Assembly: GCF_032118995.1 (NCBI RefSeq)
Contig: NC_092651.1
Coordinates: 12,983,285 to 13,047,284, forward strand
Source: Asterias amurensis
Lineage: Eukaryota; Echinodermata; Asteroidea; Forcipulatida; Asteriidae
Length of the DNA: 64,000 bases
Direction: 5' to 3'
Shown here in pieces: positions 18,051-54,258 of this stretch. A program made the position numbers and the translations under genes. The stretch's first letter is position 1. Every line of letters begins with the position of its first letter. The notes under the pieces were generated by a model, which ran no database searches, had not been told where the DNA came from, and saw only the letters and a list, made by a program, of their open reading frames with translations.

Positions 18051-18748
18051 AGTAAAAGGGTTTCATCTCAGTATAACAATGGTATAAAATAACGACTCCC
18101 GACTCATAAAACAACACCGAAGACACCAATACTGTTCCTTAAAAGCTATTTCATATTTAGTTTAAAAGACAAAGTTTAGCATGGTAAATAAAATAAAATA
18201 AAGCTAAATACTCTGGTTGAATTTAACGAATTTGTTAACTATTTCGTCATTAGAAATTATGCCAATATACACCGCCAAATACTACACTCGTATAATCTCA
18301 TATTTAGCTTAATTTAGTAAAATGCATTGATAACGCAATTTAAAATATATTTTGCATTGCTGCTGCTTTAAATTTATACTGTGCTTTATAAAGTATATGT
18401 ATAATTCCATGAAACAGTCATTTTGTCTGTAGCAAAGTGTCACATCAAGCTTTCCAGATCCCTTGATCTTGTTATAAACAAATTGATTAAAACTGTTTAC
18501 AAACTGGAAGAGTGGGTCACCCCATCCCAAATTTCATTCAATTGCGATGGAACTGCAGGCCATAGGTTCCTGTATATAAGATAATGTTAATTTTTTAACT
18601 CAATTAACTGTACAGCTTTAGAGTTTGTAATGCTTTATATACATTTGGAAAGCTGGTTTTTTTTTTGTAAATGAAATTAATCAGTTTTTAAAAAAAGAAG
18701 GGGCAAGACCAATTCAACTTTGTGATGTAAATGTACTCAGTATTTCAG
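18051..18748. other. 3' flank of SLC6 gene A
   Basis: AT-rich sequence downstream (on the minus strand) of the gene A stop codon. It probably includes the 3' untranslated region, but I could not fix a cleavage site. Confidence 0.4.
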
Positions 18749-19015
18749 TGCTTCTACAAATTTGTCTCTACTTCTTTTCAAAGTTTCTTTTGGGTGTTCC
18801 AGTGCTTTAATAATTTGTTTCTGCTTCTTTTTTAACTTTCTTTTCGGTGTTCAAGTGCTTTTCCAATTTCGTATCCACTTCTTTTGAATTTCTTTTCGGT
18901 GTTCCAGACCTTCTAATAATTTGTTTCTGCTTCTTTTTAAACTTTCTTTTCGGCGTTCCAATGCTTCTACACATTCACATTCGTCTCTGCTTCTGTGTGC
19001 AGTTTCTTTATTTCT
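18749..19015. repeat. 53-bp minisatellite (5 units) overlapping the last codons of SLC6 gene A
   Basis: Five units start at about 18749, 18802, 18855, 18907 and 18961. On the plus strand each has the order gtgcttct-(a)aattt-gtctctgcttctttt-aactttcttttcggtgttcca. The rightmost unit, nearest the gene body, covers the final codons and the stop of gene A (18967-18969). The other four lie in the 3' flank. The unit is purine-rich on the coding strand (gaaaagaaa, aagaagcagaaac). Confidence 0.8.
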
Positions 19016-25000: not shown

Positions 25001-28000
25001 AAAGAATCTTAAAATGTATGCCTTACCTCACTTCCAATCCCAAGCATAAGAATCATGGCGAAGAACAGCAGTGCCCAGATGGTTGAGAAAGGCATACGAG
25101 CAATAGCCTCAGGATAGGCAATAAATGCTAGTCCAGGACCTACAAGACAAATTTCATGCTCTCAAGTTAATATAACATAAACTGTACCAATAGACCCCTT
25201 ACATGATGCTTTTGTACACTCCTAAACAGCACCCTCACTGAAGTGAGAAGGACCTATGCTGGCCACGAGACTGCATGGTGAGAGGTGTGTACACATTTGT
25301 TTGACTTTGTGATGGAACCCTGTGCTAAGAGGTCTATTGTTGGTATTAAGGTAATATATCGACAAAAACATTGATTCAGGACCAAATTTAATAGCGCTGC
25401 TTAAGCTGAAGGTACTTTTGTTTGCAAGGCAGAACAATAGGCAGAATGTCAGTCACAAATGGGGCACGTGGAAATGTGGCGGTCGGTGAGCATCTGTGTG
25501 GGCTAAAGCTACTTTTTTTGCTATGAAATTGGACTGTGGTTTTGACACAGCATTATCTTTGTTGGTATTGAATTAGATTCCATTTATTCGACACAAAACC
25601 TATTATCAAGGAGTAAAGCAAATTAAAAACAAGCCTTAATGCATATAAAAAAGATAGAAAAAGCACAACTAAAAACATAGTCAGATCAATCAAGAAAATA
25701 AAGTGTGCAAACCATTTCCATCGTGTGTAATAATGCATTAAACAAGATAGAAAAAGCAATTGATAAACAATGAACAACAAATAAAGTGTGAATACAACTT
25801 ATAATTAAAAATGGAAATATTTCACAAATGTCATTTTTAAATTAGCAGAAGTTAGGAAACAAGTTGAAAACAATCATAAAAAAACACATTTACAATGACA
25901 GAATTGTGTACACACTCAGCATATAAAAAAGTAGTCTTATTTTCTAAACACTTTTTCTAGGAGATAGGTACCCAATCATGAATACAAATACAAAAAAATT
26001 GCTTTGAACTTGTTCAAAGCTTCAAGCATGGTTCAAACTTCCTGCGAATGCCAAGTGAATTTTGGCGTAAAATTTGTGACGTCAAATTTTGTATCAAATT
26101 TGCATTCGCATGAAATACGAACCAGGCTTTACTCCTCAACCATAGAGAAGAATGCGAGTCCTCATCAACCTGAAATGGTCTATCTTCCTCTTACCTGATG
26201 CTACAACCTTTTCAATGCTTACTCCAGCATCAGCTGCCATGAATCCAATCACGGAAAATATGACAAACCCAGCAAAGACACTCGTACCGCAATTGATGAA
26301 AGTCACAATTATCGCATCTCTGAAAATGAAAAAATAAACATTACTTATATACAAATCATCCCACCTTAACCAGCACTAGTTCCACAATGATAGAAAGATG
26401 TTTTCAAGACTTCAAGAACGAGTGATAGATTATAGATAAATGGTTTCCATGACTTCAAGAAAGAGCCTAGAATTACACAGAGGTCACAGCCTACATGTTG
26501 CCTTTGGTCTTGGCCTTGGTTCCCTTTCAACAGTTTCACATAGACTTAAAGACTCAAAGACAGTATACTGTCTTTGAGTCTTAAAGTCTGTCTTTGAGTC
26601 TTCAAGTCTATGTGAAACTTTTGATCTCATCATCAGGCTTTTTAGTTCAGGTTTGACACACAATGGATTGTCCAGGGGCGTAATTATTAGTCAACCGGTC
26701 GGCTCAACCAAAACAGGGCATTCCGATTCCAAAGTTGTTCCGGGTGTTAATAAACATCCGCTGTATTTTAGTTTGGAAAAGTTTGGCTGAAAAAAAGAGA
26801 GGACGGTTAAAGATCAAAACTCACCGATAAACATTATTGTGGAATTTGTTATAACTCGACAGTGTGTGTAGACTTCCAAAGGCAGTTCCAAGTGAGTAGA
26901 AGATCTGCACGGCAGCATCTTGCCAAACCTGTATCACAAAAAGAACGATATGTTTTTATTTAAAAAAATTCAACCTTGCTACAACTTTCTGTAAGCATAA
27001 CATTCGGTTTTTAATGCTTTATCATTTTCTCCCGATTCATCTTTTACTTACATTTAATTTCCCAAAGGTACAGATACCTCTTTTTCATGACAGTGTACTG
27101 TGATACAGGGGGGTTGATACCTGAGCTTACTGTCCACAAGGAACTTGGCTTTTGCAATGAGCTGTCGCAAAGTCATGTCTTCAAAATGCAGAATGTGACC
27201 AGAACTGACATTTAGGCCCTTATTGTTGTTTGTCATCTTCTGAATACAATAGTACCCAAACTAGCAATGTAGCAAGGTCACAAGGTGCTCATTGAGCACT
27301 GCTTTTGGTTTGCAGAGGTTTGCCCTACCTTTAATTTCTGTTGAGTCTTGATGCTACCCTGTTTTCAAATGTTGGCGTCACAGCCCTATTTTTGTTGTGA
27401 ATGTTTTGCAGGAGTTGAGCACATTTCAACTGCTGCCAAGTATTTGTTGCGAATTTGTGACGTGGTATTGGCATTTACAGAAAGTATGAACCTGGCTTAG
27501 TACCAAACTTTCCAGATACTTTCAAAAAGACAAAAAAACTACAAGAGAAACTCTGGCAGAGCTTCAAACAACCAACAAAATGCCAAGATAAGAACAGGAC
27601 TTTTGAATGCACTCATTACATGCCAAACTATAGGGCAGACTATGTCAACTGTGTCCATTTACAGAATACAGCTACCAGGAAATTATTTTCAGCCCAAGAA
27701 AACAAAACATTCATTTCATAATTCATTTTCCACATTTGTATTATTATAAAAATTAGACACTGACAGGCTACAAAGTCTAGTTAAGACAAGATTTAACAAA
27801 TTTATTGTAGTAAGTAACACCCACCGAAGTGTTCCTTTTGCATTGAGGTGTTGGTACCTCCAAATTGAAAATAATATTTGGCTCACGACACTGTGTTTTG
27901 TATAGGCCTACACAGATGGTGTACAACTGAGTCTTGTTTTTTTAGTAAACACAAAGTGTCACAAAAAAGAACAACCCAGTTTCTCACGGAAACAGGAACA

Positions 28001-31000
28001 AATATTCACAGAAATACTCACGGTTTGTTCCATAAAGTGTGGTCGTCAATATGCTGGGTATAAGTTTAATGAACAGAGTCATTTTATCAAACAAAATGAG
28101 AGAACATGTATCTAAATATTTTAGGTAGACTTCGTTCCGCTGTCAAAATGTCGTCTGCTCACCAGAAGTCTGTTCGCAAAAAGGTGCGACCGATTTACCA
28201 CATCTTAAAACTACTGCGCCGACATAAAAAATACTTATAAATACCAACTTCAAAACAAACCATAACTTGTAACTGAGCGGAATACTTTAAATAAAATTTT
28301 GATCAAGAAAAATTAAAAAAGGTTAAGTCAAAACCCCAATTGAAGTTTAAAAAGGGAATTAACTGGAACTACTTATCTTGTGGCAGAACACTAAAAGAAA
28401 AAAACGTTCGGCAGAAGGAAAGGCAGTTGTAGGTAGAGGGCGCTCTAACTAAAATAAACAAGTTTAGTACAGTGTGTAATTAATATTATAGTGGAATTAA
28501 TATTACGGATATTGTCAGCAATATTAACTAAGGAGGTATAAATAGGTAAGAGAGATTTAGTGGTAATACATGTAAATACTTGTGACTTGCCTTCGCACGT
28601 GCGAGTTTTTCCAGCTTAGGTTCGATGTAATAAATTATACCATCAATAGCGCCCTCCAGTGTAATACCTCGAATAAACAGAGCCAGCAAGACGACATACG
28701 GAAGAGTTGATGTGACGTATACCACCTTTTAGCAAGGGAGATAAAAGAAAAAATACAGTGTTAAAAGGTAAACAGCCAGGGTCCAACAATAACACACACA
28801 AATATTGTATATGCCTACTGAATTAATAATACTGCTATACTCTGACCTTGATGAAACACACCATTATTGTCAGTGGTGTCCAGTATAAAAAAAAAAGTGT
28901 CAAATATTAACCCTGGAATAAATCTTTCCAAATTTGTAGAAACATGTGGCGGTTCATTGATTGCTACAAATTATTGGAAGATTAGTTTACGGAGCTTTGA
29001 AGGTGTCATCTGTTGTACTGCTTTTCTATAGCCTCGAATGATGATAGATGTGTTGTTTTGTTTGTAAGTAGGTCTAATTTCACTTTTTCAACAGTTTTTT
29101 TTTGCTTAATTTTTTTCTTCTTCAATATTAAAAACAAGATTTTGTAGAAGAATGTAATATTTTACTTACCTTGCCGGATGTTTTGATTCCTTTGATGAGA
29201 CTGAAAAACACAGCTATCCAAGCCAAGAGTAGACACAAGGCTAACTCCCATTTGACTGGACCCATGATATGCATACCGTCTGACATGGTCAACACGTAAT
29301 TACTGCATTAGAGACAAAAAAATTAATAAATACAATTTTAACTAATGAACAGTATAAAAAGTATTCCTAGCTTTGGCAAACATAAGGCTCTTGCCCTTCA
29401 ATATGTTGCATGTTGGGCAACATATTGAAGGAAAGAGAGTTGAGCAAGTAAAAGTTTTTTCCATTTTATAGCACTGTTCCGAGATCCTCGTTTCTATCAC
29501 TATCCCCAATTATGTCTTCAAACCGACATAGGAAATTGTTTCGAAAAAAAAAGACAATGGTCCTAATGTATTTTAATTTGAAGAAAACAATGAAAAGTTC
29601 TGATTTTACTTGTTCCAGTGGGATACTTACTTAAAATACTCCTCACTGGGACGAACTGGATGGGTGATGTTCGTGAAAGATTCATTTTGTGAGGTTTCAC
29701 TGTAGAGTGTTTCATTCTGGGAGGTTCCATTCTGGAAGATGTATTCCAAGGTGCCATTTTCTCCCTTCTTTTGAATGGTACAGTTGCCAGTATTCCATTC
29801 GTTTCCGCATGTCTTCCATGGTAACTCACTCGTAAAGGACGCAAACAGGTAAAAGAACGCATACGCAATGATGACGTTGTAGTATAGAGTCACTAGTGCA
29901 CAGACAATCAGCATACCATAACCTAGCCCTGGGGAAACGAGGATTATAAAAGAAAAGTAAAAAAACAGAGATAAGTAGTTTTTTATGAAAAATACAAGAT
30001 ACAACTTGACTGACATAAACTGACAAAAGCAACCTTCGAACATTCTAAAACATTAATCAAGGATCGTCGAGAATGCCAATCTGTGTTCTCTCTCAATCAT
30101 TGAGGCGTGTTGCTCAAAATAATTGTACAAACCAACACACACACAAACTCACATTTTCTTTCATTTTTAAAGGTCTTGTTTTTAGAACCTTTGGGCAATA
30201 ATATTGGAGAAATTAAGACACTAATTTCATTTCATTTTGCGTTTCTCTGTAACGCTACATTTAGCGCCAAATAGAGGGACCATTTTACAAAGTAAATAGT
30301 CATCTAACCCACACGGCATGGGTAACATTTTAAACCACGACCGAAGTTCTTGGAAATTTGAAATGTGGTTATAGGTCTTAAATGAAATTCTGACACGTTG
30401 CTATAGGAACGGATATTGACGCAGTCTGGATCTATTATGTACGGAAACGAACGCATTATAGAGCATACACTGAACGGGTGCACGCGATATGACGGGGAAA
30501 ACAGTAGTGCCCGAAACTACAGCGGCTGTTGACCCCTTATGCCTTCCCTAACCACACCGCAAGACATACATGTAGTGTAGGACTATTTGACTGCATCGTG
30601 AGTCAAACACGCAGTTTAAAGGCAGTGGACACTACTGGTAATTGTCAAAGACTAGCCTTCACAGTTGGTGTATCTCAACATATGCATAAAATAACAAACC
30701 TGTGAACATTTGAGCTCAATCGGTCATCAAAGTTGCGAGATAATAATGAAAGAAAAAAACACCTTTGTCACACGAAGTTGTGTGCGTTTAGATGGTTGAT
30801 TTCGAGACCTCAAGTTCTAAACTTGAGGTCTCGAAATCAAATTCGTGGAAAATTACTTCTTTCTCGAAAACTATGGCACTTCAGAGGGAGCTGTTTCTCA
30901 CAATGTTTTATACCACCAACCTCTCCCCATTACTTGTCACCTAGAAAGGTTTTATGCTAATAATTATTTTGAGTAATTACCAATAGTGTCCACTGCCTTT

Positions 31001-34000
31001 AAACGACTGGTTTGTAAATGAGTCTGGCTGTTAAATGAGTCTGGTTCCGGTCGTGTCCGTTATAATGGGGGAATGGGATCACCTCAGAAAGCTCCATTCA
31101 CTACGTACACATAATATAATATTATTCATGCCGTTTTCTATAAAAAAAAATTGAGGTCAGGCAATTAAAAAAAAAAAAAAATCCCAGAAAATCAAGAAAT
31201 CGCTTATTTCTGCCTGCAGAACTCAAGCAGTTTCTCCTGTGCTCATTGTATTTTAATTTTGGGCTGAACAAAGAAAATCTGACTATAGTGAGTGAGCCTT
31301 GAACCTGCGACCTTCGGATTAAACGTGCTGGCGCTCTACCAACTGGCCTGAGTGTTGTCGGTCTCCTTGTTTGAAAATTGTTATCTTTGCTCGTGTGTTA
31401 TTTTATTTGTGACCTATGACAGCAAGGAGGTGGAGCGTTTACCTCAAAAACAACTTTCTTGTTAACAATTATTTGATGATTGCACCAGCTGTAGTCTCAT
31501 GATCATAAGCAAAGTTGCTCTATAGCATTGACCCATTTAAACACTTTTCTGCCAGAGCTCAACTCAACTCAACTTCTGTGGTCTAATGGAGAGTAGATCA
31601 GTCACCGACTCCCTAAGGCTCTTGTGAATCGACCTTGACTTTCTAATCCCGGTCTGTTCTAGTGGGTATAGAAGTTTCAAGTTTAAAGTCAAGATGGGTA
31701 AGAAAGAACGTCTACTACATCACAGTTATTTTTTTGTTTTAAGAAACATGGTAAAACCCAACCATCGTGCTTCATTTTTGTTAACGTTTATTAAAAAAAA
31801 AAACAGAACGAAGAATGTACACCAGTTTCTCAAAACGGAAAACCAACACAAAGATGAATACGTGAGACTTGTGACGTCATTCGACTCACTTTTCACTGTA
31901 TATACCCACGTTAATCTTTTACTTAAGATTTAAGAAGGATCTGTAATGTACCGCCTTTACAACCTCAGATTATGGGAGTTTCCAAGAATGTACACATATC
32001 CAAACATCCCACTACACCCAATGAGTAAAAGTAAACGAGGGACATTTGTATAGGCAATGGATTTAAAGTAATTAACAAAAAAAATGTGTTTTAAAGGTAT
32101 AAGTGAACTCAAAATATAAACAGCCTTTTTCTAATCCTGTCAAAATGTATATTATGTACTCTTACTTGTTCTCACTGAAGCTTGATCACTTTGCTTTCTC
32201 CTTGATACGTTTTAATTTGTGTTTGTTCAGAGGGACCATTTAAAACAACCTTTAGGCTTTTGATAGACCATCTTGTTTGGTTAGAAGTTTTGAAATCAGT
32301 GTTGGAGTGCAGGTATACATTCAAATCCAAAACTGTCTTTCTTTGGCGAGGCCAAATAAAAGTGAATTATCAAAACAAAAATAATCATACAGTTTGGCCC
32401 TATTAATTTCCCAGCAATATACCTTTGAAGAGAGGGCAAATCTTCCAGATGGTGAGACATCCTTGACTGGCAAACTGACCGAAGCTAAGCTCCATGAAGA
32501 ACATTGGAAGGCCTGCTACCAATACCATGATCAAGTACGGTATCAAAAATGCACCTGTGTCAGAAACCAAGCAATCAATCAATATTATATTTCAAATTAT
32601 ATCAAATATAAAATATATTATACCAATAATTAACAATTATAGATATGTCAATCTCTTAAAAACAACGTCGAACAGGTTGGAATCTGCAACTATACTATGG
32701 TTCAGATCCCACTTTGACAGATTTTGTTTTTGGAAATAGATCTAAGTGGTCCTGCGTGTACATTTCTTCACAGGTTTGTTATTTCATGTATAAATGGTTC
32801 ATCACAAAAGAACGTTGTCTATTTGAATCATTAGCTTTTGTATTTTTGTCTAAGAAAAGTCTATTAAATCCCGCTCTCTTGTTTCAATAAATGGCACACC
32901 ATTCAACCAACCTGCACTTTTCGGTGGACACCTGGGGCCAATTTCAAAGATCTGCTTAGCCCAAAAATTTGCTAAGCGTGAAATTTGTTCCTTGATAAAA
33001 ACGGGATTACATATTTCCATTTGTTGCATATTGCTTGTTACTGGTATTCAGCGCATGATTGCTTATCCTGAAAATCAAGTGGAAATTTGGTTGGTAATCC
33101 TGTTTTTATCGAGGAAGAAATTTCATGCTAAGTACATTTTTGTGCTTCGCAGCTCTTATCTATGGAAATCGGGCCATGAACACATACTTTGTCGGGGTCC
33201 CTAGCACTTTATATTTGGCTCATTCCAATTACAACAATCGATTAACAAAGGTGATACATGATTTTCGAATGATGTGTCCTCGAGCAAAAATTGACTATTA
33301 AACACAACAATAAGCTGCGGCCGTTAATTATTGACGCACGACAATGTCCGGGATAATTAGTTTAATTTCAATTAGTTATTCCATTTTCATCTATTGTGAC
33401 AGAAATCTAGATTAAGCCTTCCGGATTCTTAATAAGCTAATGCATCTACGGATAATGCACTCACACCTACGCATAAAATCTCATTGCACCGAACACGTAT
33501 TCGTGTATTGAGGGTCATTTTGGGGGTAAACTTTAATTGTTTGGTTGTTTTCAATGCAATGCTAATTTATAGGCAACATTAGATAAAAACAATACAATAA
33601 ACGTCACACATTGAAGTGTTCAATTGTCAACTGAATATAGTCTCTATACTTGCTGAGAGAACAGCAAATGTCAAGGAATTTTTACACTTAAGTCGAATAA
33701 CTTATGCCTCTGAAAAGAACTGGTGTGGTTGGACGTTTCGAACAGTATACGAACAGTATACTCTGCTCGTCTTCGCAGGAGAAGCTTTCTCCTGAAGACG
33801 AGCAGAGTATACTGTTTGAATTATGGAGACCAACACTCCATGAAAGGAGTATTAGCGTGGAAGCGTCGAGGCCGAGCAGTTAAGAGCACTGAATTCAAAC
33901 TATGGTGTTTCTGATCAGCAGAGTGTGGGTTCGAATCCCCAGTCCTTAAGCAAGACACTTAACCATTGCTTCGTCCTTCGGACGGGACATAAAGCCGTTG

Positions 34001-35706
34001 GTCCCATGTGTTGTGTAAAGTGTAAACGCAATGTAAAAGAACCCAGTGCACTTATCGCAAAGAGAAGGGGTTCGCCCGGTGTTCCTGGCTGGATTGGCAG
34101 CATATTGCGCCACAACACCTTGTAAACCATTACATGGTTGCTAAGGATTATGTCATAATCTCAAACTTCGTCCCACTCCTTGCAGTACACTGCAAAAATG
34201 TTGGTCAAATCATTTGTTGGGCAAAGTAACTTCAACAGTTATTGGTCGATAATTGCCCAACAAAACCAATAATTGGTGTTGGACAAACATTTTGTTTGCC
34301 AATTTTTTGTTTAAAAAGCGGAACAAAATTTGGCCAAGTGATGGGCAAATAATTCGTAATCTGAATTTATCATAACTGTTGGTTACACTTTTGCTTATTT
34401 ATTGGAGCAACTTTTTGGGTAATTTTAGTTAATTATGATTGTTGGTTAAAATGATGCACATTAGTTGGTCAAAATCATCCGATCATGCGCACTACGATCA
34501 AAGAGTTGCCCAAAAGTTGGGCAAGGTATGAAATAACATAACGATATTTTCCAACATGGCGAGTGGAGGAATGGCTGTGACGAGCGGGGTTTTCCAGTAG
34601 ATGTAGATCAAATTTGAAGGTTAGTTTTGAACTAAATATGAAGTTGTGTTTTCTATTTAGTCGTACATAGTCGTGACAGTTGCAGAGGGAGCAACAAAGT
34701 GACACTACTGTTGAATTAGTTTCAGTTTTTAGTTTCAGTTTTATCATGCCATTATGTGCAACGCCGGTTGTGGCATGTATGCGTGTGCTTGCGCTGCAAC
34801 TGTCACGACTGTGTACAACAACTGAACAAGAAACAAACTATATTTAGTTGAAAACTAACCTTCCAAAGCATCTACAAACCACTGAGCACCCTCTCGATTT
34901 TGAGAGAGATGCCAAGGCCTTGGAAGGTCACACCTCACCACCGTTTGCCATCGTGGAAATGATATTTTCTACGCCTGGTTGTATGACGTGTCACAGAAGA
35001 AACTGTAAATCAAAGGGTTAAATACATTCACCATTTGTTGGATAACACCGAAAAGGGTTAAATCATTAATAAAATCATCGCCCAATAAGTGGGTTATTGA
35101 TAATGTATTAAATACCTAGAAAATGGGTAAACAAAAAATTACCCAACTGTTGGTTACCAAAATATACCCAACTATTGATGAGGAAATATTACCCAATTAT
35201 TTGGCAATCAGAGTGCCCAACTTTGATGGGTAATATTTTGCCCAAAAGTTGGAGGAGTTCACTATTCGCCCTTAATTGGGTAAAAAGTTGGGCATTTTTT
35301 TACCCAATTTGTTTACAGTGTAGTAATACCTGGCGCTTTGTATCCTTTGGCAAAAGGCGCGTTATAAATACGGTTATAATTATTATTATACATGGTTTGT
35401 GTACCCGCAAGTTTTCTTTAGTATTTATAGTTTCTTCCTGTGATATTATTGTTGCCTGGCATTGAATGTCTTACCGCCTCCATTTTCAAAGCAGAGGAAT
35501 GGGAAGCGCCAGATGTTGCCTAGTCCCACCGCGAAGCTGACACAAGACAGGACGAAGTCCAGTTTGCCAGACCAGTTGCCCCTGGTCTCATTCTCGTCAC
35601 CTTCTTCGACCACTTTGCTGGTCTGAAGACTGGAGTCGTCCCTTATTATATCTTTCCCCTCTTCCGGTCCCATCGGGGTCTCAAAGTCCTCACGGTTACC
35701 CGTCAT
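18967..35706 (-). CDS. SLC6 family Na+/Cl--dependent amino acid/neurotransmitter transporter, 'gene A' (glycine-transporter-like), 13 coding exons
   Basis: Plasma-membrane symporter of the SLC6 (LeuT-fold) family. Coding exons (minus): 35475-35706, 32423-32554, 29631-29928, 29170-29302, 28591-28725, 26825-26928, 26195-26319, 25027-25139, 23892-24032, 22557-22656, 20894-20994, 19796-19969 and 18967-19128. Phases join to 649 codons with no internal stop. All acceptors are AG and all donors GT except GC after 28591. TM1 has [12 protein letters not shown] (about residues 59-70) and TM2 FLIPY. A disulfide loop, [12 protein letters not shown] (Cys162/Cys171), lies in a long extracellular loop with six N-glycosylation sequons. 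TM6 has QIFYSLG and [10 protein letters not shown]7 INCGTS, TM8 [19 protein letters not shown]. The C-terminus has [10 protein letters not shown]. The Na+ and Cl- ligand positions look intact. The shape recalls invertebrate glycine/neutral amino acid transporters, but the substrate cannot be fixed. Start ATG 35706 lies just after a likely acceptor (ctactag), so a 5' untranslated exon is expected upstream. Confidence 0.93.
20380..20634. repeat. Foldback element with tRNA-like (Lys-type) arms, in gene A intron
   Basis: The left end is the reverse complement of a tRNA-like unit (gagtgggatttgaaacc ... gcgctctaccaactgagcta). The right end is a decayed tRNA-like unit in the forward sense (aaagctagatggtagagtgc ... 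ggttcaaatcccgctcta). Between them are smaller inverted segments, for example gcggcagccaggag against cccctggctgccgc. The same architecture, shortened, occurs at 46745-46860. It is not a functional tRNA gene. Confidence 0.75.
21600..22300. repeat. Degenerate about 230-bp tandem repeat, three copies, in gene A intron
   Basis: The segment caatatattcaca-gtaaatgcacatcaa-gtaaatccctgtatatgaatgaactaaatgaa at about 21846 recurs at about 22077, and partly at about 21610. Each is followed by attcagatttacacaca, caatgtcaa, cttcacaaaaagttt and gagattcaaat-aattcagt blocks. Copies are diverged, AT-rich and have no sustained frame. They lie in the intron between exons 22557-22656 and 20894-20994. Confidence 0.7.
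22693..23066 (+). repeat. Second palindromic TTAA MITE-like family, copy 1 (gene A intron)
   Basis: Starts ttaaagccattggacccttt and ends aatggctttaa. It contains a 20-bp near-palindrome aattctcgttagcgagaatt in the centre and a CpG-rich block gacacggcgaaacgcgcg. The right half shares cgattgagcctaaatttcc and cacaggattgttattttata with the first family. A near-identical copy lies inverted at 50527-50898. By eye they differ at roughly 15 positions plus the length of a poly-A run, so insertion looks recent. Confidence 0.88.
23150..23467 (-). repeat. Degraded palindromic MITE-like copy (gene A intron)
   Basis: Reverse-orientation landmarks seen: gtatacttttggtaattgtc, aaagaccagtatcctcac, aataacaaacctataaaaat, aaagaataaaacacccttgt, tgtgtgctttcag. 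Beyond about 23340 the match decays. Same group as the 7495-7795 remnant. Confidence 0.55.
24323..24550. repeat. Foldback MITE-like element (ggacccaatttcat ... gtgaaatttggccca)
   Basis: The terminal inverted repeats pair ggacccaatttcatgggtct and gtaagcaaag on the left with cggtaagcaaagccgtgaaa and tttggccca on the right. The element abuts a tRNA-like SINE remnant (24551 onward). A related element is at 32934-33178. Lies in the gene A intron between exons 25027-25139 and 23892-24032. Confidence 0.65.
24551..24925 (+). repeat. tRNA-derived SINE remnant split by a foldback insertion
   Basis: 24551-24590 reads tctctgatcagcagagtgtg and a B-box-like ggttcaagtccca, as in the SINE at 33855-34187. 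24849-24925 resembles that SINE's body (ccaggtgtttctggccagg, ttggcagcagattgtgcca). The interval 24699-24848 is a separate palindrome inserted in it. Confidence 0.6.
24699..24848. repeat. Palindromic element inserted in SINE remnant
   Basis: The left arm has gatttcacaaagagttaaga and the right arm ccttactctttgtgaaatcg. Inside, ttaggactacc / ggacaagtcctaagttagga blocks also pair, so nearly the whole 150 bp folds back on itself. Non-coding. Confidence 0.75.
26004..26135. repeat. Short foldback repeat (gcgaatgcc ... gcattcgc), gene A intron
   Basis: tcctgcgaatgccaagtgaa at about 26039 pairs with tttgcattcgcatgaaatac at about 26098. The centre holds a perfect TGACGTCA (26077-26084) inside aaatttgtgacgtcaaattt. 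The right flank reads acgaaccaggcttta. A related but decayed end (agtatgaacctggctta) occurs near 27485-27500. Confidence 0.5.
26532..26619. repeat. Hairpin with direct duplication, gene A intron
   Basis: agtttcacatagacttaaag and actcaaagacag on the left pair with ctgtctttgagtct and ttcaagtctatgtgaaact on the right. The gtctttgagtctt block is duplicated on the right arm. The loop centre is the palindrome gacagtatactgtc. Confidence 0.85.
29396..29432. repeat. Short perfect hairpin, gene A intron
   Basis: ccttcaatatgttgc pairs with gcaacatattgaagg across a loop of a few bases. Isolated; no terminator or RNA-gene context. Confidence 0.8.
30616..31002 (-). repeat. Full-length palindromic TTAA MITE-like element, well preserved
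   Basis: The best-preserved full copy in the window (387 bp), in the gene A intron between exons 32423-32554 and 29631-29928. Termini are ttaaaggcagtggacactac and a right end reading agtgtccactgcctttaa, a long terminal inverted repeat with TTAA at both ends. The centre is a perfect stem, gatttcgagacctcaagtt against aacttgaggtctcgaaatc, around a 3-nt loop. No frame for a transposase. Confidence 0.92.
31285..31352 (-). repeat. tRNA-like SINE head remnant
   Basis: Read on the minus strand it has an A-box-like ttggtagagcgccagcacg followed by tccgaaggtcgcaggttcaa, the layout of the tRNA-Lys-like arms at 20380-20634 and 46745-46860. The acceptor stem does not pair, so it is not a working tRNA. Confidence 0.55.
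32934..33178. repeat. Foldback MITE-like element (ggggccaatttc ... gaaatcgggcc)
   Basis: ggggccaatttcaaagatct, atttgctaagcgtgaaattt and tgataaaaacgggattac on the left pair with gtaatcctgtttttatcga, gaaatttcatgctaagt and tatggaaatcgggcc on the right. Non-coding; same group as 24323-24550. Lies in gene A intron 1. Confidence 0.7.
33752..33817. repeat. 66-bp near-perfect hairpin, gene A intron 1
   Basis: aacagtatactctgctcgtc and ttcgcaggagaa pair with ttctcctgaa and gacgagcagagtatactgtt. Arms are about 31 bp with one unpaired base and a 3-nt loop. It stands immediately 5' of a tRNA-derived SINE. Confidence 0.9.
33855..34187 (+). repeat. tRNA-Leu-like SINE, left part
   Basis: The head has the A-box-like ggccgagcagttaagagca and B-box-like gtgggttcgaatccccag, arranged as in tRNA-Leu with a variable arm. 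The body follows (cttcgtccttcggacgggac, aagccgttggtccca, gcatattgcgccaca). It stops at tgcagta, where the 34188-35320 element begins. Its 3' end resumes at 35321. Confidence 0.8.
34188..35320. mobile_element. 1.13-kb terminal-inverted-repeat element inserted in the SINE
   Basis: Starts cactgcaaaaatgttgg and ends acccaatttgtttacagtg, imperfect inverted termini (CACTG/CAGTG), flanked by TA on both sides. Both arms are built from many ttggg / cccaa-type words. An inner inverted pair (aaggttagttttgaacta, gtcgtgacagttgcag against ctgcaactgtcacgac, agttgaaaactaacctt) folds the middle. No transposase frame. Probably a non-autonomous DNA transposon; a TA target suggests but does not prove a Tc1/mariner-like mobiliser. 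Confidence 0.78.
35321..35395 (+). repeat. tRNA-Leu-like SINE, 3' part
   Basis: Resumes after the inserted element with acctggcgctttgtatcctt, an aaaggcgc near-inverted partner, and a taaatacggttataattattattat tail of ATT units. Together with 33855-34187 it makes one SINE. Confidence 0.75.
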
Positions 35707-45304: not shown

Positions 45305-48300
45305 TCAAAGAGTTGTTTCGTGTGAGGACGTATTGATGAAGGGTAAATCTTCCTGTTCAGACAGACCGAGATCAGTCTCAGCACCTGTTGTGTAATCCAA
45401 TTGTGGTGATGGGTACACACGATTGGAACCCATAGTGTCCGTGGCTGAAACAGTGGCCGGGGAGGCTGGAGGGACCTGAGACCCCGCCAGAGGGGTCGGG
45501 TACGTCGAGGGTAGACCGGGGGACCCAACGGAGCTAGGAGCAGGCGAGATGTTCTTGGTGGAATCGGGACTAGCAGACCGAAGCTCGGAGTACCCGTTGT
45601 AGGCCGGTGGAGGTGGACTATGCGACGGGGGATGTGTGTACACCACAGCACCCTGTGGAGGTGGCACGTAGATTGTTGGGGACGTTGTGGTAGGGTTATA
45701 GTGGATATCACAGTTGAGCAGATGGGGGTTGGTGTCGGTGTTGGAGTAGCCTGCTTGCTGCCGGTGAACCTCGACGGCCGGACCCCACTCTGGGGAGGAT
45801 CTTACAGCCTTCCAAAATAACTGTCAACAAATGAGATAGAGAAAGTAATACAGATAAAATTACTCAATAATTATGTCAATTGCAAGTTTTGACATGATGT
45901 CACTCCCTGCTCATGCCTCACATTGTCTCTGAGAATCGATTCTAGATGGCTAGAGAAAAGTGAATAGTATTCTGACTTTTACGAAATTAAGATTGTAAAA
46001 TTTTTCATTTTTATGCCGATCAAGGCAGTATCTAAAAGGACATCTGAAAGGAACTGAAAATGGGAAAAGTAATACGACAAAGACAAATAGACATTGTTTT
46101 TTTATTTATCTCAATGAAGCATTCGCCACGTATTGTATATCAATAACGCTTGCAGGCTATACTCACATTCGTTAAGTAGGTATAGCTCCTCCGCTGTTTG
46201 ACCAATTGGTAGATGCCAACAATTATTGGTATGAGAAATAGAGGGACGATGCCAATAGCCAACATGATGTAACCCATCCAATATGGGTGACTGACTTGAT
46301 CCAAATATCTTATAGACACAATGAAGCTGTGACAGAAATACAACTGCAGAAAAGAAAACAGTTTGATATGTATTAGGTAACGTCATGATAGGACAGAGGT
46401 ATAAGTAATAGGAAAAGCATTGTAGGTCAGCGGTTCGGTTCAGAGCTGTATATGTAATTTGAAAACATTTACATGAAACCTGTGATAGAAGCTCTAAACG
46501 TTGTTATTCATGCCATGTACACGGTCAATATATTTGGTTTATAAGCATGACAATAAATAATATCAGGATGCACGACCGAGTGCCACTGAGCTTCGTGACC
46601 CAGTGTGCAATTGTTGTCATATTATAGTAGGATGATTTCAATATTATTATGAAACGAAATCCCGTTAAGTTTATTTTTATAAACCACATGGGAAACTGAC
46701 AGGGTAAATTTGTAAATGATTTTTGGGTTGAACAAAGAATTGACTAGAGTGGGATTCGAACCAACGACCTCCGGGGACACCGCCAATATAGGGCTAGATA
46801 GCTCAGTTGGTAGAGCGCCGGCACGTTAATCCGGAGGGCGTTGGTTCGAATCCCACTCTAAATCAAGTTTATTTTTAAATATTTCAATTTGTTCTACTCT
46901 TGAGAAAAAAATGGCTCTCGTAATTAGGAGAAGACAGATAGGTTTACCCGTTTGTAAAGCACTTTTGTGCAGACTCTAATGTGCGAGACTTGCACAGTCT
47001 ACCGAAGCCTACGCCTAATTTCACCAGTCAAAGAGGGCAAATGGTACTGTGTGATAAAGAATGGTACTTTTGTTTGCTCCTTATTCTTAAAATTGATTTG
47101 TGCTTTCATAATTTTTTGTCGTTTCTTATAAAAGCAGCTCTTTGAGTTTTGGCCTTTAAAGACAACAAGTACATCTTACCACCATGACCAGCGGGATGAT
47201 GACGGCCCAGAAAGGAAGGAAGATCACTTGCAACAACTTCGGGAAGAAATTAACCATTATCTGCATCTCTTGTGGAAGTCTCAAAATGTCCCATTTAGGA
47301 ATCGTACCTGAAAGCGAAAAAGTTGAATAATGTAACTGTCTCACCCTACAGCTTGCAATGAGTTTCGGAAGATCTTTTCTCTAATGAAGTTGCAAAAGTG
47401 TTGGTCTTCGGCAATTACCAAACGTGTCAAACACCTTTACAATAATATATTATGTTGGAAAACAGACAGATATTAGCTGATCTAGTCCCTGAGGTATCTT
47501 ACCATAAACCCAGATTGCAGCGAGCGGCAACAAAATGGCAACAAAAGGAGTAGCCCAAACTATCAGATGAGCGTCGATTGCCCCAACCACGGCGTAGCCA
47601 CTCTGCAAAACAAGCCAAAAGATGCAAACATCAACAGTCATTATTAGCTAGAAAAGGAACTAAGCTTTTATGTCATGGTTCTTTTCAATATTTACGAATT
47701 ATTGATCGACTGCAGGCTGCCGGTGCATTCTTAGCCTCCAGATTTCTAAAAATATAATCTTGAGTCAAAACAACAACTAAAATTCAAGTTCGGACTAAAA
47801 GTTTCAAGAGATAAACAATTCTATCCACTCCTCTTTGCCGCTTGGTTTTAGCAGCAAGTGATAACAAAAACTATCATTTCCATATTTCGGCTGGGTTTGT
47901 ACACTCAATTATTACTTTGTCCTCCCCGAAATGTTTAATAGAGAAAATACAGCATAATTTTAAAATGAAAAACTTTTACAACAAAATGAACATGTACCCT
48001 TTATTTATTTGTTTGAGTTTGTCTCACCTCTGTTACCATGGGGAGAGAAATCAAGAAGCTGAGCACGCAGATGATACCACTAGTTGGTAAGAGGAATATC
48101 CAGGAGTGGGGTAGATGAAACACATCAAGAAACGTCGTCAGTAAAGACTGCACCACAAACACCTGCGACATAAAATTGTACATTCAATATAACACGCATA
48201 TCAAAGTCTGCAATTATAATAAACACGGTGTCTGACGACATAGTAAGGGTTTGTGTGCAGAGTATGCCAGCCCCGGCTGACACTAAGGGTTGATTCAGTG

Positions 48301-51300
48301 CCCAAATTTTAACACTTAGAAAATAATATTTCCATGTGAAATGAAGTTTTATGCGAGGAGGAAAACAAATGGAATGAAAATCTGAAAATGCACCAGCTGA
48401 TTTCGGTTGCTACAACCAAAAGTAAAGACACACGAATTAAACCGAAATGTTCACCTTTGTTTTTTCATTTATACCACCAGTGCACACAACACAGGAATCT
48501 TGCCTATGCCTATTTTGTATAAAGGCTCTTCCAATCCGGTATATTACCTTAATTCTGTGCGAATCAATCTGCTAAGCAAAGTGTGAGGTCACAATATAAA
48601 TCACTATCAAACACTAACAACTCATCACTCTTTCATTATAAATCTTGGTGTTTTGTGAAATCAAAGATTAATGATTTCTCTCAACGATTGATCTTAAATG
48701 AAAACCAATTTGCCTGCTATGCAAAGTTACATTCTTGATTTGAATATATAGGCAATTACATACGGATGAGCTTATAGTTGTGATGAAGAGTGTGGCAAAG
48801 TAGACACATGACCAGGCAGTGGCAGTCGGTAGAGTTGAAAGGACTTGTGGCATGTTTACGATCAAGAACTCCACACCTGCAGAATAAAGCACATGGTCAA
48901 ATCAGCATATCATTCAAATTCAATATCGGCTCATAAAGTAGTAGGATTATTTAAACAAAAATAAACCGCAGCTTCTTCACAGCTTATGAATAAGTTCCAT
49001 CTTAAAAATATACCGCAGGACATCTTATGAAACGGAGTACAGTTTAAAACAATTATTGAAGCTTGTGAGTTGTGTGTTGCTTCAAAATCACCGCGACAAT
49101 GTTGCCAGTTTTGCTTGTGGTACATTTTCCCGGCTGTTGCCAATAACAGTTTCGCCGTAACAGATCTTGGTTACGACCTGGAAAATGAACACTTATTGGG
49201 ACCTGCTTGTAGGATAATCTAAACAGGAACACACCGTCTTATGGGAAGGCAATGTTATGCTAATTGTCCAGGCTCATGAGAACCCGCATTCAGATGGCAT
49301 TCATTTAATGTATTTTAGTGATTATTTCTTCTTTAAAAATGATCTTATTATAATTTGGGTTACATATTTCGTGGTTTGTGACGAAAAGATAAAACATAAT
49401 AGGGGTCTGGTATCTGTGAAAACAAATCGGTGTCGATGTTAATCATGACGTTTCGGCAAATATTTGTCTGTCTTCAAGAAAAGAGATGACAACAGAAGTA
49501 TTGTCATAACTGAAACATTTATTCATCTTCTGTAAAGTTATTTCTAATAAGTACCTGCTCCAGCAATGGATCCAACATCAAGATTCGCTACGCGGGAATG
49601 GCCACCAACTAAAGTAGCCACCGTCAGCACACGGACGATGTTGATGACAATCACTGCCAACACCACAAGGAAGGCATCACTGCATAGAGAAAAGTAAAAA
49701 CACATCAACAAATCAAGACATAACTTTCAGCAAGTGAGTAACATGCAAGTAGGTAACTTACATGTGGAAAATTGAATAAGACACAAATCATACAGATCCA
49801 GGGCACGAAATCCTCCATCTTCCAGCTTAAATTGCAATATACACGTTTATGTTTCATTGAACTGTTTTAACAATGTATCTCTATGTAAGTTAGTCAATAT
49901 ATAATGTCAATGTCAATGTTATATAGATATACATGTATTGTACTTTCTTGTGAAAAATTATTTTCTACTTTGTTTGTGCAGCGCCATGAGCGACATGCCT
50001 GACGGACCTGTGCGCTCTATAAGAGGCCACTATTATTATTTTTTATGTATAATTATACTTGAAAAAACCACTGAACTCACAGGCAGAAGTTGTTGTGGAA
50101 CTTGTTGTAGCTAGCAAGTGACGAGAAAATACCTGCTCCAAGAAATCCTATGCTGACTACACAGCCCATGGCATTCCTCCAGAACTGGGCGACAGTTTAA
50201 AAAAGAAATGATTGTGTTCAAGAAGGTTTGTTTAATATATTTATTTCTTGTTTTTGCTAAAGATTGTGGTAATGAATATAATTCAGGAAGGTCTGTGATT
50301 TTACAAGGCAAATCCCACCCCCCCCCCAAAAAAAAAGGCTCACAAAAGCTCCTAAATTACATGGTCATAGATTTGTATACTCCTGCGCTACTTTGAAAAA
50401 GGATTCGTTTGGTTTGGATATCGATAATTTGTCACTCCAAAACATTTGCATCTTGGGAACAACTTATTGCATCTTTATTAATGGCATGGCGTTAAAGAGC
50501 AAATGTTTATACAAAATAGGTAATATTTAAAGCCATTATACACATTCGGTAAACAGTATTGTCCAAGTCCCACACTTCGTGTTTCACAGCTTATATATAA
50601 AATAACAAACCTGTGGAAATTTAGGCTCAATCGGACATCGGATTCGGGAGAAAATAACGGGAAAACCCACTCCTGTTTTCGCGCGTTTCGCCGTGTCATG
50701 ACATGTGTTTATAACAAATCCGTAATTCTCGTTAACGAGAATTTATATTGTTTTACCGTTTTCTCAAAAAGTAAAGCATTTCATGGACTAATATTTCAAG
50801 AGAAGTTTTTCACCATTACCTTCTGTAAACCCTGTAAATTATTTGTAAATCTGTGAACTTTTTTTTTTTTCTGTACCGAAAGGGTCCAATGGCTTTAATT
50901 AAATTAAATAACGGAACATCTAAATTGACCGCTTATTTTCGGAAAAAGACTTACAAAACCGATATTTTACGAACATTTGAAACAGAAAATATTTAAACAC
51001 ACCTCTAATGACCCAACATGCCGCTTGTCAACAAAAAAATAAAATCGGAGGCCTTCATAGGCACCATCTAGGGTGGCTCCGCGTATGAGAAGAGCGAAAG
51101 TTAGGATGATAGTGATGGGCAAGAGAACCAAGGCAACCTGTAACAAAATGGTAATCAAGATAGTTTTATCATTCAGCAACAATTGGTGACATTGATCAAA
51201 AAGCAGTATTATACACATGTATACCGGTACCTCCACCAAAATACCACCAGAATTAACACTAGAAGAAAAAGTACAAAGCTGAAATATCGTCTATAGCGAG

Positions 51301-54258
51301 GAAATGGTTAAACAATATTTTTATAAAAGTCAATTCTTATTTTGATTGCACAATACATGAACGCACACTTGAAGTGCTTAAATAAGAAATAAAATAAACC
51401 AGTTGTTTTCACTGTATGGGGACCACTGCTGTCCTGTGTCGTGATATAGTTTACTGTTTCGCTGTAAAGTTATGTATTGCAATTTAAAAAAAACATGTTA
51501 GCTTCACTCTCAAAACAAAAAAATTCCCTTGAAGCTTTTCTGTTCACTTACCTTCCCGGTCAGCTTCGCTCCAAGACATGTCAAGAACAGAACCAATCCC
51601 CAAGTAGAAAGAAGACCGAACACTAAGTTTGGTTTCAACCCACCGATGTTTGTCAAGTCATTCTGTTCGTTAATAACAAGGTAACTGCAAAACAAAACCA
51701 CACAAATATTGAATATGGGAGTTTAACATTATCACACACGTTGTCATAGACCAGTCTTTCAACTTGGTGTATCTCAACATATGCATAAAATAACAAACCT
51801 GCGAAAATTTGAATTCATTTGGTTGTCGAAGTTGCAAAAAAAAATAAAAAATTCGGAGGTCGACGTTACTTCAGAGGGAGCCGTTTCTCACAATGTTTTA
51901 TGCCATCAACCACTCTACATTGATACCAAGCAAATTGTTTAGCTAAGAGTTTTGAGAAATTATCAATAGTATCCAGTATTTAAAGCAGGATTTCCATTAA
52001 GTACATTTAGTTATTGAGCCATACAGGCATGTCGACAGCAGAAATAGAGGGCGTCCACAGCAGACTGACAACGACCCCGTATATAATGATGACGTCACAT
52101 TTTGAATGTACCTCCCTCTATAAAGTGATGTAACTGGGTACTACATTTTCTGACAGTTGACAGTTGAGCAGAGACGCAATGGTAAACACACTGCAACTTT
52201 ATCAGTACTAAGATCTAACTGGGATCAGCATTCTCCGGATTCCGATTCCGACGAGATGAAGAAAAACAAATGTTAACGATTGATTGATTCCGTACAGGGT
52301 CCCTTAAAGAAGATTAGTTTACCTGGCAAACTCGTTCGCAGGGCTGATCTGCGCATCAACGTAAAAACCAGACTGGTAGGAAAACCCTTGGTTCTGCAAG
52401 GAAACATTCTGTTGAACGACCCCTGGCGATGTCATCGCGCTGGAACCATCATAACAGTGAACAGTATTCCAATCATTGGAACAGCTTACCCACGGCAGAG
52501 TCTCTGACGAGACGGTGTAGAAACCATACAGAAGATAAAAGGATGACAGCACGGTGGAAAGTGCGTTATGGAGAACGAGGTAGAGGGTTGCTACCAAGCC
52601 AAGTCCTGGTTATCATAAAGGAGAACAAAAATATACAAACGTCATTGGATTGAGTAAATGCAACAACTGTATCATTTATTTATTTCATTAAAAGAGAAAA
52701 TAAACTATGGTGTTGTGGAAGTGAAAACCATAAAATTACAATCATTGAATTTTCAGTAACTACATCATAAATTATAGATATTGTTTTATTTAAAACCAAA
52801 CTTTGCAGCCAAAAGGCTGAATTGCGTTTAAGTAACAATCTTAACTTATATACTCGAACATCAAAGAGTAAGAGCACATAATAAAATTTACAATAAGAGG
52901 TTATAAAAATATAGAATAATAAATCACTGTATTCTGAAAAGGTTCCTCAAAATTAAAAGTGGTAGTGTCTGTATACAGTTGTATATGACTTTTCATGGAT
53001 TATGTGCACTTTGTGTGAACCCTTTGTGCTTGTCTTGATTAAGAACCGAGTGTTTGGGGAAACTTCCACACACCTTTGAACAACGGCGCAAAGTTCCAAA
53101 CCGAGATGAACCCGGAACTGGAGAACTGACCAAGTGCCATTTCTAACATGAAATATGGAAACATCAGCAGGATTGACAGAATGCAGACCACGGCCAGGAA
53201 GATGCCTAAAAAAACAGATTACAGAAAGATTAATGACTGCTGTTTTTTACCCTCTCATTTTTCACAGCTGGCTTTAATAGTAGTTCAATTAATTTGCGAA
53301 GTTGCTGGGTAGAGTCAAGTTGAGGGTCTGTGTTAGGTTTTATTGGGTTAAGGTCCATCATACGATAAGACTGGAACAGCTTCGTGTCCGTCCAAAGCAC
53401 AAACACCAGATTGTCTAGTTATTGTCATGACTAGTTATTATTACTAGCTGTTCCGACAGCAGTACCACTGTATGTTACAGAGGAGCTGGGAAAGCTGCAG
53501 CTACTATACGGAATGATTCCGACAATAATTATCAATATAATGCAACGATCTTAACCCAAACGAGCATCTACTCCCTGCTACAGGAGATTTCAATGTCATG
53601 TTGTTTGTGAATGAAGTGAGTTCACTTATATGCTGCATCAATTTTGAGCATAGAAGCAAGTCTCCAGTAAAGAGACAATGGTGCTATCATTATTCCTGTG
53701 ATATATATAAAAAATAAGGCTAATATGTCTTAATAAACAGAACGTTCAAAATCAATTACCCCCTCCGTTGGAATACACCAGGTAGGGCAATACCGAAAAC
53801 GTGCTATGGGCGTTACAAACGGCAATACATGCGAAGATAAACTCAATCTTGTTCCACCAGTTTCCACGTTTGGGGTTCTCGTCTCGGCTCGAGATGGGGA
53901 AAGGGCGAGTGGGACGCGGCATGAAGGCATCCGGGGAAGGCCTGCTCGCGGGCACGGGGTTACCGGCTCCATTATCGGGGGCTGGTGTCACTGGTTCTGG
54001 ATCCTCGTAGACGAACCGGCTGCCGTCTGTGACGCCTCTGTTGTTCGGCTCAACTCCTTGAATCAAATTAAGAAACAGAAATAGTGACTAAAAAGTATTT
54101 TGAATTTGGTAACTGGACATCGAAGAGGTTGGAACAGTCTTTCTCGAATTGCAGACTTTTTAAATATTGAAATAATGTATACGAAGTATGTATGTAAATT
54201 ACATCATGTATAAGTATTTGAAAAGAGGCGAAGACGGTATACCTTTCGTTCCATTCAT
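45305..54258 (-). CDS. Divergent SLC6-like transporter, 'gene B', 14 coding exons, lacking the canonical ion-binding signature
   Basis: Coding exons (minus): 54243-54258, 53760-54056, 53074-53205, 52323-52605, 51552-51684, 51003-51137, 50081-50184, 49555-49679, 48764-48876, 48028-48162, 47503-47602, 47180-47307, 46167-46343 and 45305-45820. All boundaries are GT-AG and join to 797 codons without a stop. SLC6 ancestry is shown by [60 protein letters not shown] and PEWGPAVEVHR, and by exon lengths identical to gene A (132, 133, 135, 104, 125, 113, 100). TM1 reads CNAHSTFSVLPY where family members have AVGLGNxWRFPY. The TM2 Tyr, TM6 Gln and Ser, and TM7 Asn of the Na+/Cl- sites are also replaced. 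The 171-residue final exon is Pro/Ser/Thr-rich, with PPAY (about residues 697-700) and C-terminal ETTL, candidate WW- and PDZ-domain ligands. Substrate unknown; it may not be a coupled transporter. The frame is open upstream of ATG 54258 to the acceptor at 54293, so the true start could lie in an unseen exon. Confidence 0.9.
46745..46860. repeat. Foldback with tRNA-Lys-like arms (short form), gene B intron
   Basis: The left arm (46745-46774) and right arm (46831-46860) are 30-bp inverted repeats with a single mismatch, built from the T-arm end of a tRNA-like unit. The forward unit 46791-46860 has A-box tagctcagttggtagagc and B-box ggttcgaatcc and most resembles tRNA-Lys. The position equivalent to T33 is C and the acceptor stem does not pair, so it is not a tRNA gene. 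Confidence 0.8.
48391..48510. repeat. Dispersed repeat fragment, gene B intron
   Basis: agctgatttcggttgct, aaccaaaagtaa, a decayed middle and gttttttcatttataccac resemble the segment at 54487-54660 (aggtgatttcggttgcttgc, aaccaaaattaag). Ancient. Confidence 0.4.
49960..50045 (+). repeat. Retroposon 3' tail (ATT repeat), gene B intron
   Basis: tgtttgtgcagcgccatgag, ggacctgtgcgctctataag and ccactattattatt form a SINE/LINE-like 3' end with an ATT-type tail, similar in layout to 35321-35395 but a different sequence. No reverse-transcriptase frame nearby. Confidence 0.5.
50527..50898 (-). repeat. Second palindromic TTAA MITE-like family, copy 2 (inverted, gene B intron)
   Basis: Reverse complement of the 22693-23066 copy nearly end to end, including the CpG-rich gaaacgcgcgaaaacaggag block and a central 20-bp palindrome, here perfect (aattctcgttaacgagaatt). 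Ends read ttaaagccatt and aatggctttaa. It lies in the intron between exons 51003-51137 and 50081-50184, which does not correspond to the intron holding copy 1. Confidence 0.88.
51722..51984 (-). repeat. Palindromic TTAA MITE-like element, shortened copy (gene B intron)
   Basis: Reverse landmarks seen: catagaccagtctttcaac, ttggtgtatctcaacatatg, aaataacaaacctgcgaaaa. There is then an internal deletion of the centre, and gttacttcagagggagccg, tttctcacaatgttttatgc, a decayed right end and agtatccagtatttaaa. Confidence 0.75.

Follow-up and report, generated by a model that had tools for sequence, protein, structure and literature searches.

A predicted SLC6-family protein of Asterias amurensis in which nearly every Na+/Cl- binding residue is exchanged

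A 64,000-nucleotide stretch of the Asterias amurensis genome (contig NC_092651.1, positions 12,983,285 to 13,047,284; hereafter the window) carries a gene, termed gene B, whose predicted product has kept much of the SLC6 scaffold and has exchanged nearly every residue that binds Na+ or Cl-. A canonical SLC6 gene of the same window, gene A, was used for comparison. The gene B protein is very probably no classical Na+/Cl- symporter; its role is probably another one, perhaps that of a sensor or signalling protein and not of a pump. The reading as a whole, namely an SLC6-fold protein of common descent with gene A, long constrained, not a classical symporter and putatively engaged in sensing or docking, was given slightly less than an even chance of being right.

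The residues of the Na1 and chloride sites are taken to define the coupling of ions to transport in SLC6, a family of drug targets. Those lost from gene B were kept in the canonical proteins and, where shared, in nearly all of the best 80 of at least 581 bacterial relatives. A natural member that is intact, has no Na1 or chloride ligands and yet retains the Na2 hydroxyls and the inner gate would be a ready test of which parts of the transport cycle are separable; should gene B not transport, it would plainly exemplify the conversion of a transporter into a receptor or scaffold.

Gene structure, family membership and common descent

Gene B was located at 54258-45305 on the reverse strand (Table 1). 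Re-splicing reproduced the coordinates and the 14 exons of the original prediction, with a spliced length of 2394 bases and an open frame of 797 codons whose sole stop was terminal. All 13 introns were GT-AG, and no frameshift or broken splice site was found. The model was assembled manually, guided by homology and splice sites, and its weakest part is therefore exon 1, which has 16 coding bases; 35 bases before the ATG there is an acceptor-like CAG, and this exon may have a 5' extension further upstream. On the 3' side, the sole AATAAA/ATTAAA within 1500 bases past the stop was at 44007, about 1.3 kb away.

Table 1. Positions in the window of genes A and B, their exons and selected motifs
Feature	Positions	Strand	Description
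Gene A	18967..35706	(-)	canonical GlyT-like SLC6, comparison gene; 13 coding exons, 649 aa
B exon 1	54243..54258	(-)	start codon, MNGTK
B exon 2	53760..54056	(-)	N-terminal tail, RGNW motif, TM1 as far as NGGG
B TM1 signature, altered, CNAHSTFSVLPY	53782..53817	(-)	residues 86-97
B exon 3	53074..53205	(-)	TM2, IL1; Val111 at Tyr121 equivalent
B exon 4	52323..52605	(-)	TM3 and EL2, conserved LPWxSCxNxWNTxxC
B exon 5	51552..51684	(-)	TM4
B exon 6	51003..51137	(-)	TM5, EL3
B exon 7	50081..50184	(-)	TM6; Cys340, Ile344 at Gln332, Ser336 equivalents
B exon 8	49555..49679	(-)	TM7; Val376 at Asn368 equivalent; Arg383 inside TM7
B exon 9	48764..48876	(-)	EL4, first half of TM8; Ser444/Ser445 (Na2 hydroxyl positions) at 48772-48767
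B exon 10	48028..48162	(-)	remainder of TM8 (inner-gate Asp459), TM9
B exon 11	47503..47602	(-)	TM10 (Asp501)
B exon 12	47180..47307	(-)	IL5, TM11
B exon 13	46167..46343	(-)	TM12
B exon 14	45305..45820	(-)	EWGPA motif, then Pro/Ser/Thr-rich cytosolic tail, stop codon
PPAY, PPxY type	45599..45610	(-)	gene B residues 697-700
ETTL at C-terminus	45308..45319	(-)	class I PDZ-ligand pattern; gene B residues 794-797

The intron between exons 12 and 13 contained a tRNA-Asn(GTT)-like sequence (46745-46865; Rfam, 41.1 bits). Its 3' part was an inverted match (97%) to a 30-base arm 56 bases upstream, which suggests a tRNA-derived repeat. A near-identical reading of about 110 residues was present on opposite strands in introns of gene B (50524-50856 (+)) and gene A (22740-23111 (-)), and is probably an interspersed repeat.

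By descent, the predicted gene B protein is a member of the SLC6/SNF family. The match to the Pfam SNF profile (PF00209) scored 238.5 bits (cut-off 27; E 1.9e-70) and spanned residues 69-614 and profile positions 1-521 of 524. The best sequence matches in the PDB were GlyT1 (210 bits) and the proline transporter (PROT; 199), followed by a GlyT2-like chain named Transporter (197) and GlyT2 (192). The reference sequences of SERT, GAT1 and LeuT matched PDB chains exactly over their full length, and those of GlyT1, PROT and GlyT2 over the stretch used. Gene B was 25.0-29.5% identical to gene A, GlyT1, PROT, GlyT2, SERT and GAT1, and 16.5% to LeuT, whereas the six canonical proteins were 41.7-54.4% identical among themselves. 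In a tree of eight proteins with trimmed ends, in which all five inner branches were under 80, the gene B branch measured 3.63 changes per column, compared with 0.45-0.97 for gene A and the five solved eukaryotic proteins.

The RGNW motif and the WNT/Cys motif of EL2 are common to gene B and to SLC6A9, SLC6A7 and SLC6A5 (GlyT1, PROT and GlyT2). A C-terminal WGPA is shared with GlyT1, while GlyT2 has WGPF and PROT has WGPS. Nevertheless, identity to these three proteins was only 26.2-29.5% and, unlike them, gene B has neither the Na1 side-chain ligands, the Cl- ligands, the outer-gate Arg nor the TM1 signature. No SLC6 protein with the same loss was described in the titles and beginnings of abstracts of the papers listed, largely from open journals. 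The closest paper in topic, on deuterostome glycine transporters (PMC8699752), describes duplicated GlyT2-like genes in sea urchin and amphioxus, and its available part made no mention of ion-site loss; likewise, nothing on such a loss was found in the available part of a paper on monoamine-type SLC6 proteins (PMC10244343). A search for gene B orthologues in viral contigs gave four pattern matches and no relative.

Genes A and B lie on the same strand and have one gene structure, and their 12 common introns were all placed at the identical alignment column and in the identical phase. Therefore, the two genes share descent, and the exons of gene B are not random open frames. The proteins are 25.0% identical. 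Unlike gene B, gene A has a canonical TM1 and canonical ion ligands, and its short C-terminus has no tail like that of gene B. One intron of gene A was GC-AG (GC donor at 28590), an Asn replaced the acidic outer-gate residue in its TM10, and a 53/106-base tandem repeat with a Lys/Glu-rich reading (18746-18976) overlapped its stop codon and extended downstream.

The original prediction had suggested, as an example, that gene B might be a non-transporting partner or regulator of gene A. As a non-transporting subunit or a dominant-negative partner, gene B could control how SLC6 relatives, gene A included, are trafficked or how active they are. SLC6 proteins can oligomerise, genes A and B are same-strand neighbours with one gene structure, and gene B has retained EL2 and the C-terminal EWGPA. 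However, nothing was found beyond adjacency and a gene structure that speaks for common descent only; nothing specific ties the two proteins together, given their low identity and different tails, and this explanation was considered improbable.

Residues of the transport core

TM1 aligned gap-free within one exon, flanked by RGNW, and the gene B run was CNAHSTFSVLPY. Residue roles in SERT and LeuT, like the helix limits applied in the counts, follow the structural literature. The alignment bore out every replacement originally predicted (SERT numbering first): in TM1, A96>C86, V97>N87, N101>T91 and R104>V94; at positions named as chloride ligands, Y121>V111, Q332>C340, S336>I344 and N368>V376. 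Further changes were D98>A88, S372>N380, G94>A84, L434>T441, D437>S444, Y176>S165, F335>S343, G100>S90 and G338>F346.

Accordingly, the Na1 side-chain ligands (SERT Asn101, Ser336 and Asn368) were lost, being Thr91, Ile344 and Val376 in gene B, as were the Cl- ligands (SERT Tyr121, Gln332, Ser336 and Ser372), which were Val111, Cys340, Ile344 and Asn380. The outer-gate Arg104 was replaced by Val94, and its acidic TM10 partner, Asp501, was retained. Also kept were the inner gate R79/D452 (as R69/D459), S438 (as S445), E126, NGGG and the EL2 cysteines C190/C199. An alternative alignment of TM6 with an extra gap on each side, obtained by tblastn with GlyT1, placed a Ser of gene B opposite Ser336; it was set aside because exon 7 has 104 bases in both genes and MAFFT aligned it gap-free.

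At Na2, the side-chain pair of gene B was Ser444/Ser445, standing at LeuT Thr354 and Ser355, which serve LeuT as the Na2 hydroxyl ligands. The remaining Na2 ligands are backbone atoms, and the corresponding positions of gene B were altered (A84, N87 and T441). Gene A, like GlyT1, has Gly at the first hydroxyl position (LeuT Thr354). Since Ser444/Ser445 match the chemistry of the LeuT pair and the other ligands are backbone, Na2 is not clearly lost. Gene B is thus devoid of Na1 and chloride coordination and may still retain Na2. The claim that most Na+/Cl- ligands had disappeared held for the Na1 and Cl- sites, but not for the surviving hydroxyl pair of Na2.

The concentration of the loss was quantified on 126 invariant columns, defined on gene A, GlyT1, PROT, GlyT2, SERT and GAT1, of which gene B kept 69. 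From a list of 13 ion-ligand positions taken from the structural literature, seven were invariant in the six canonical proteins; gene B kept none of these seven, as against 69/119 of the other invariant columns (Fisher p = 0.003). When each canonical protein was judged by the other five, 7/7 or 7/8 ion ligands were kept. With a wider core list, partly compiled after the alignment was seen, gene B kept 0/15 invariant positions versus 69/111 elsewhere.

The regional breakdown, which covers 125 of the 126 columns, gave the following fractions kept: 3/3 before TM1, 1/7 in the TM1 core, 5/6 in the NGGG stretch, 5/8 in TM2, 4/4 in IL1, 2/5 in TM3, 11/11 in EL2, 2/2 in TM4, 10/15 in IL2/TM5, 1/2 in EL3, 5/12 in TM6, 4/5 in IL3, 1/9 in TM7, 2/8 in EL4, 3/9 in TM8, 1/3 in TM9-10, 6/8 in IL5/TM11 and 2/8 from TM12 onwards. 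These counts indicated that the loss was heaviest in the transport core, yet marked in EL4 and TM12 too.

Bacterial LeuT relatives provided a further yardstick. The sample consisted of the best 80 of at least 581 relatives in genome contigs, found with two patterns around TM1, and the TM1 counts are biased because of both this selection and the search patterns. Within these limits, the TM1 residues Asn27 and Arg30 of LeuT were kept in 77/80 and 78/80 sequences, and Val23 in only 56/80, with Ile in 21. Among the same best 80, Tyr47 was kept in 77/79, Tyr108 in 77/78, Gln250 in 79/80, Asn286 in 77/80 and Thr254 in 71/80, with Ser in six more; the inner gate was less strict (Arg5 56/79, Asp369 58/77). 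Thirty-five columns were near-universal, that is, identical across seven references as well as 90% or more of these best 80 of at least 581 relatives. Gene B kept 20 of them and lost 15, 13 of which fell in TM1, the start of TM2, TM3, TM6 and TM7; the lost columns were spread over seven exons (2, 3, 4, 6, 7, 8 and 9).

Constraint, decay and assembly

An artefact of assembly or annotation was considered, be it an overlooked canonical TM1 exon, frameshifts that compensate each other or a misassembly; in its favour, the analysis covered a single assembly. A missed exon had been named originally as a finding that would overturn the prediction. No exon is missing at TM1, because TM1 lies inside exon 2 between the conserved RGNW and NGGG. 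An AVGLGN-like (canonical TM1) reading was not found in the other frames of exon 2, and a tblastn search that used three canonical proteins as queries (E up to 1) detected no second canonical TM1 in the window, while recovering the TM1 exon of gene A at 2e-14 to 5e-18. Both results disfavour a frameshift or a missed exon and, with the near-universal losses scattered across seven exons, an artefact was regarded as extremely improbable.

Neutral decay was approached by simulating drift on the coding sequence of gene A; the model had no indels, so that frames survive more easily. Stops averaged 6.3 at 0.1 substitutions per site and numbered 23 at 0.7 (27% identity, comparable to gene B), with 0/200 runs stop-free in both cases; at each of the six distances simulated, none of the 200 runs was free of stops. 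Since drift brings stops at every distance, gene B probably evolved under constraint for most of the time in which it diverged. The description of the gene as intact and probably functional was borne out to this extent: it is intact, and neutral drift would have brought stops.

A gene silenced recently and in early decay is a separate matter. The very long branch of gene B and the residues lost outside the ion core would fit such a history. On the other hand, the 797 codons are free of stops and frameshifts, the splice sites of all 13 introns are whole, and a decaying gene would not be likely to leave EL2, IL1 and the motif before TM1 untouched; the simulation, too, speaks against long neutrality. 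Recent silencing was therefore judged very unlikely.

Possible functions of gene B

With the Na1 and chloride ligands, the outer-gate Arg and the lid lost, it is natural to infer that the mechanism has changed or that the protein does not transport, as originally proposed; the proposed partnership with gene A was the part left unsupported. To judge from its sequence, a protein that has a long cytosolic tail and acts in signalling or docking is more likely than a transporter.

The central site was compared by counting Ser/Thr/Asn/Gln in gene B and in gene A, GlyT1, GlyT2 and SERT. Gene B had more in TM8 (12 vs 4-6), TM3 (6 vs 2-3) and TM1 (5 vs 3-4), but fewer in TM7 (3 vs 5-7), TM5 (3 vs 4-5) and TM10 (1 vs 2-5). 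Because the shift runs in both directions, a rebuilt central site is something that we infer and do not observe. His89 lies in TM1 and His161 at the position of SERT Ile172; in TM7, Arg383 stands where gene A, GlyT1, GlyT2 and SERT are uncharged. The available part of PMC5809530 equates SERT Ile172 with LeuT Val104 and ties this position to substrate selectivity.

The tail encoded by exon 14 comprises 171 residues and is rich in Pro, Ser and Thr. It contains PPAY, YSEL, a C-terminal ETTL and, from residue 635 on, nine Ser/Thr-Pro sites; motifs as short as these can arise by chance.

In the mechanism proposed, the central cavity would have been refitted with polar residues from TM1 (N87, H89, S90 and T91), TM3 (H161, N162, S165 and T166) and TM8 (S444-S446). 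This cavity would bind a ligand without coupled transport, or the protein would stay in one state. Gene B would then be a membrane sensor or docking platform that acts through its cytosolic tail, by way of PPAY, YSEL, the Ser/Thr-Pro sites and ETTL. The comparison is with SNF-12 of Caenorhabditis elegans, an SLC6 protein in signalling whose C-terminus binds the STAT-like STA-2, as described in the available parts of PMC3309975, PMC7043892 and PMC8263066; those parts made no statement on whether SNF-12 lacks the ion ligands. SNF-12 resembles the candidate role of gene B as a signalling SLC6 protein with a C-terminal partner (PMC3309975), a partner that in gene B would be hypothetical. SLC38A9, a LeuT-fold transceptor, is a transporter fold serving as a sensor, but it belongs to another family than gene B and also transports (available part of PMC5444488). 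Spelled out in full, gene B would be an SLC6 pseudo-transporter, a receptor made from a transporter, with the ion-coupling core turned into a Ser/Thr/Asn/His-lined ligand pocket and with a signalling tail; this version is put forward tentatively, as a possibility on which we would not rely.

Several observations do not favour sensing or docking. The loss extends beyond the ion core (EL4, TM9-10 and TM12 onwards), the gain in polarity is not general, and a transporter coupled in some other way could likewise have the Na2 pair, the inner gate and a polar cavity. Such a protein would still transport without Na1, chloride and the outer Arg, as a Na2-only transporter, with protons (through His89 or His161) or by ion-independent exchange. 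Ser444/Ser445 reproduce the LeuT Na2 hydroxyls, the inner gate Arg69/Asp459 and Asp501 are retained, and His161 occupies the selectivity-linked position. Na+-independent relatives with the LeuT fold exist, ApcT and CaiT among them. Another, from a different family, is Drosophila CG1139 (available part of PMC5809530). Against continued transport, the hinge glycine and the entire TM1 signature are gone, and the lid residues Tyr176 and Phe335 are both Ser. To our knowledge, the loss at 15/35 near-universal columns exceeds any coupling switch within one family. Altered coupling was thus considered rather unlikely. Sensing or docking was ranked first, followed by a transporter with changed coupling, a partner protein, decay and artefact.

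Elsewhere in the window, a 297-codon open frame at 10673-11563 (+) matched the rhodopsin-family GPCRs (5.6e-16) and a 373-codon open frame at 62001-63119 (+) matched the start of a Sulfotransfer_2 domain (6e-08), the first 160 residues having been scanned in each case. Additionally, a 21-base tandem repeat of about nine copies, with 93% matches and open in two frames, was present at 2659-2844.
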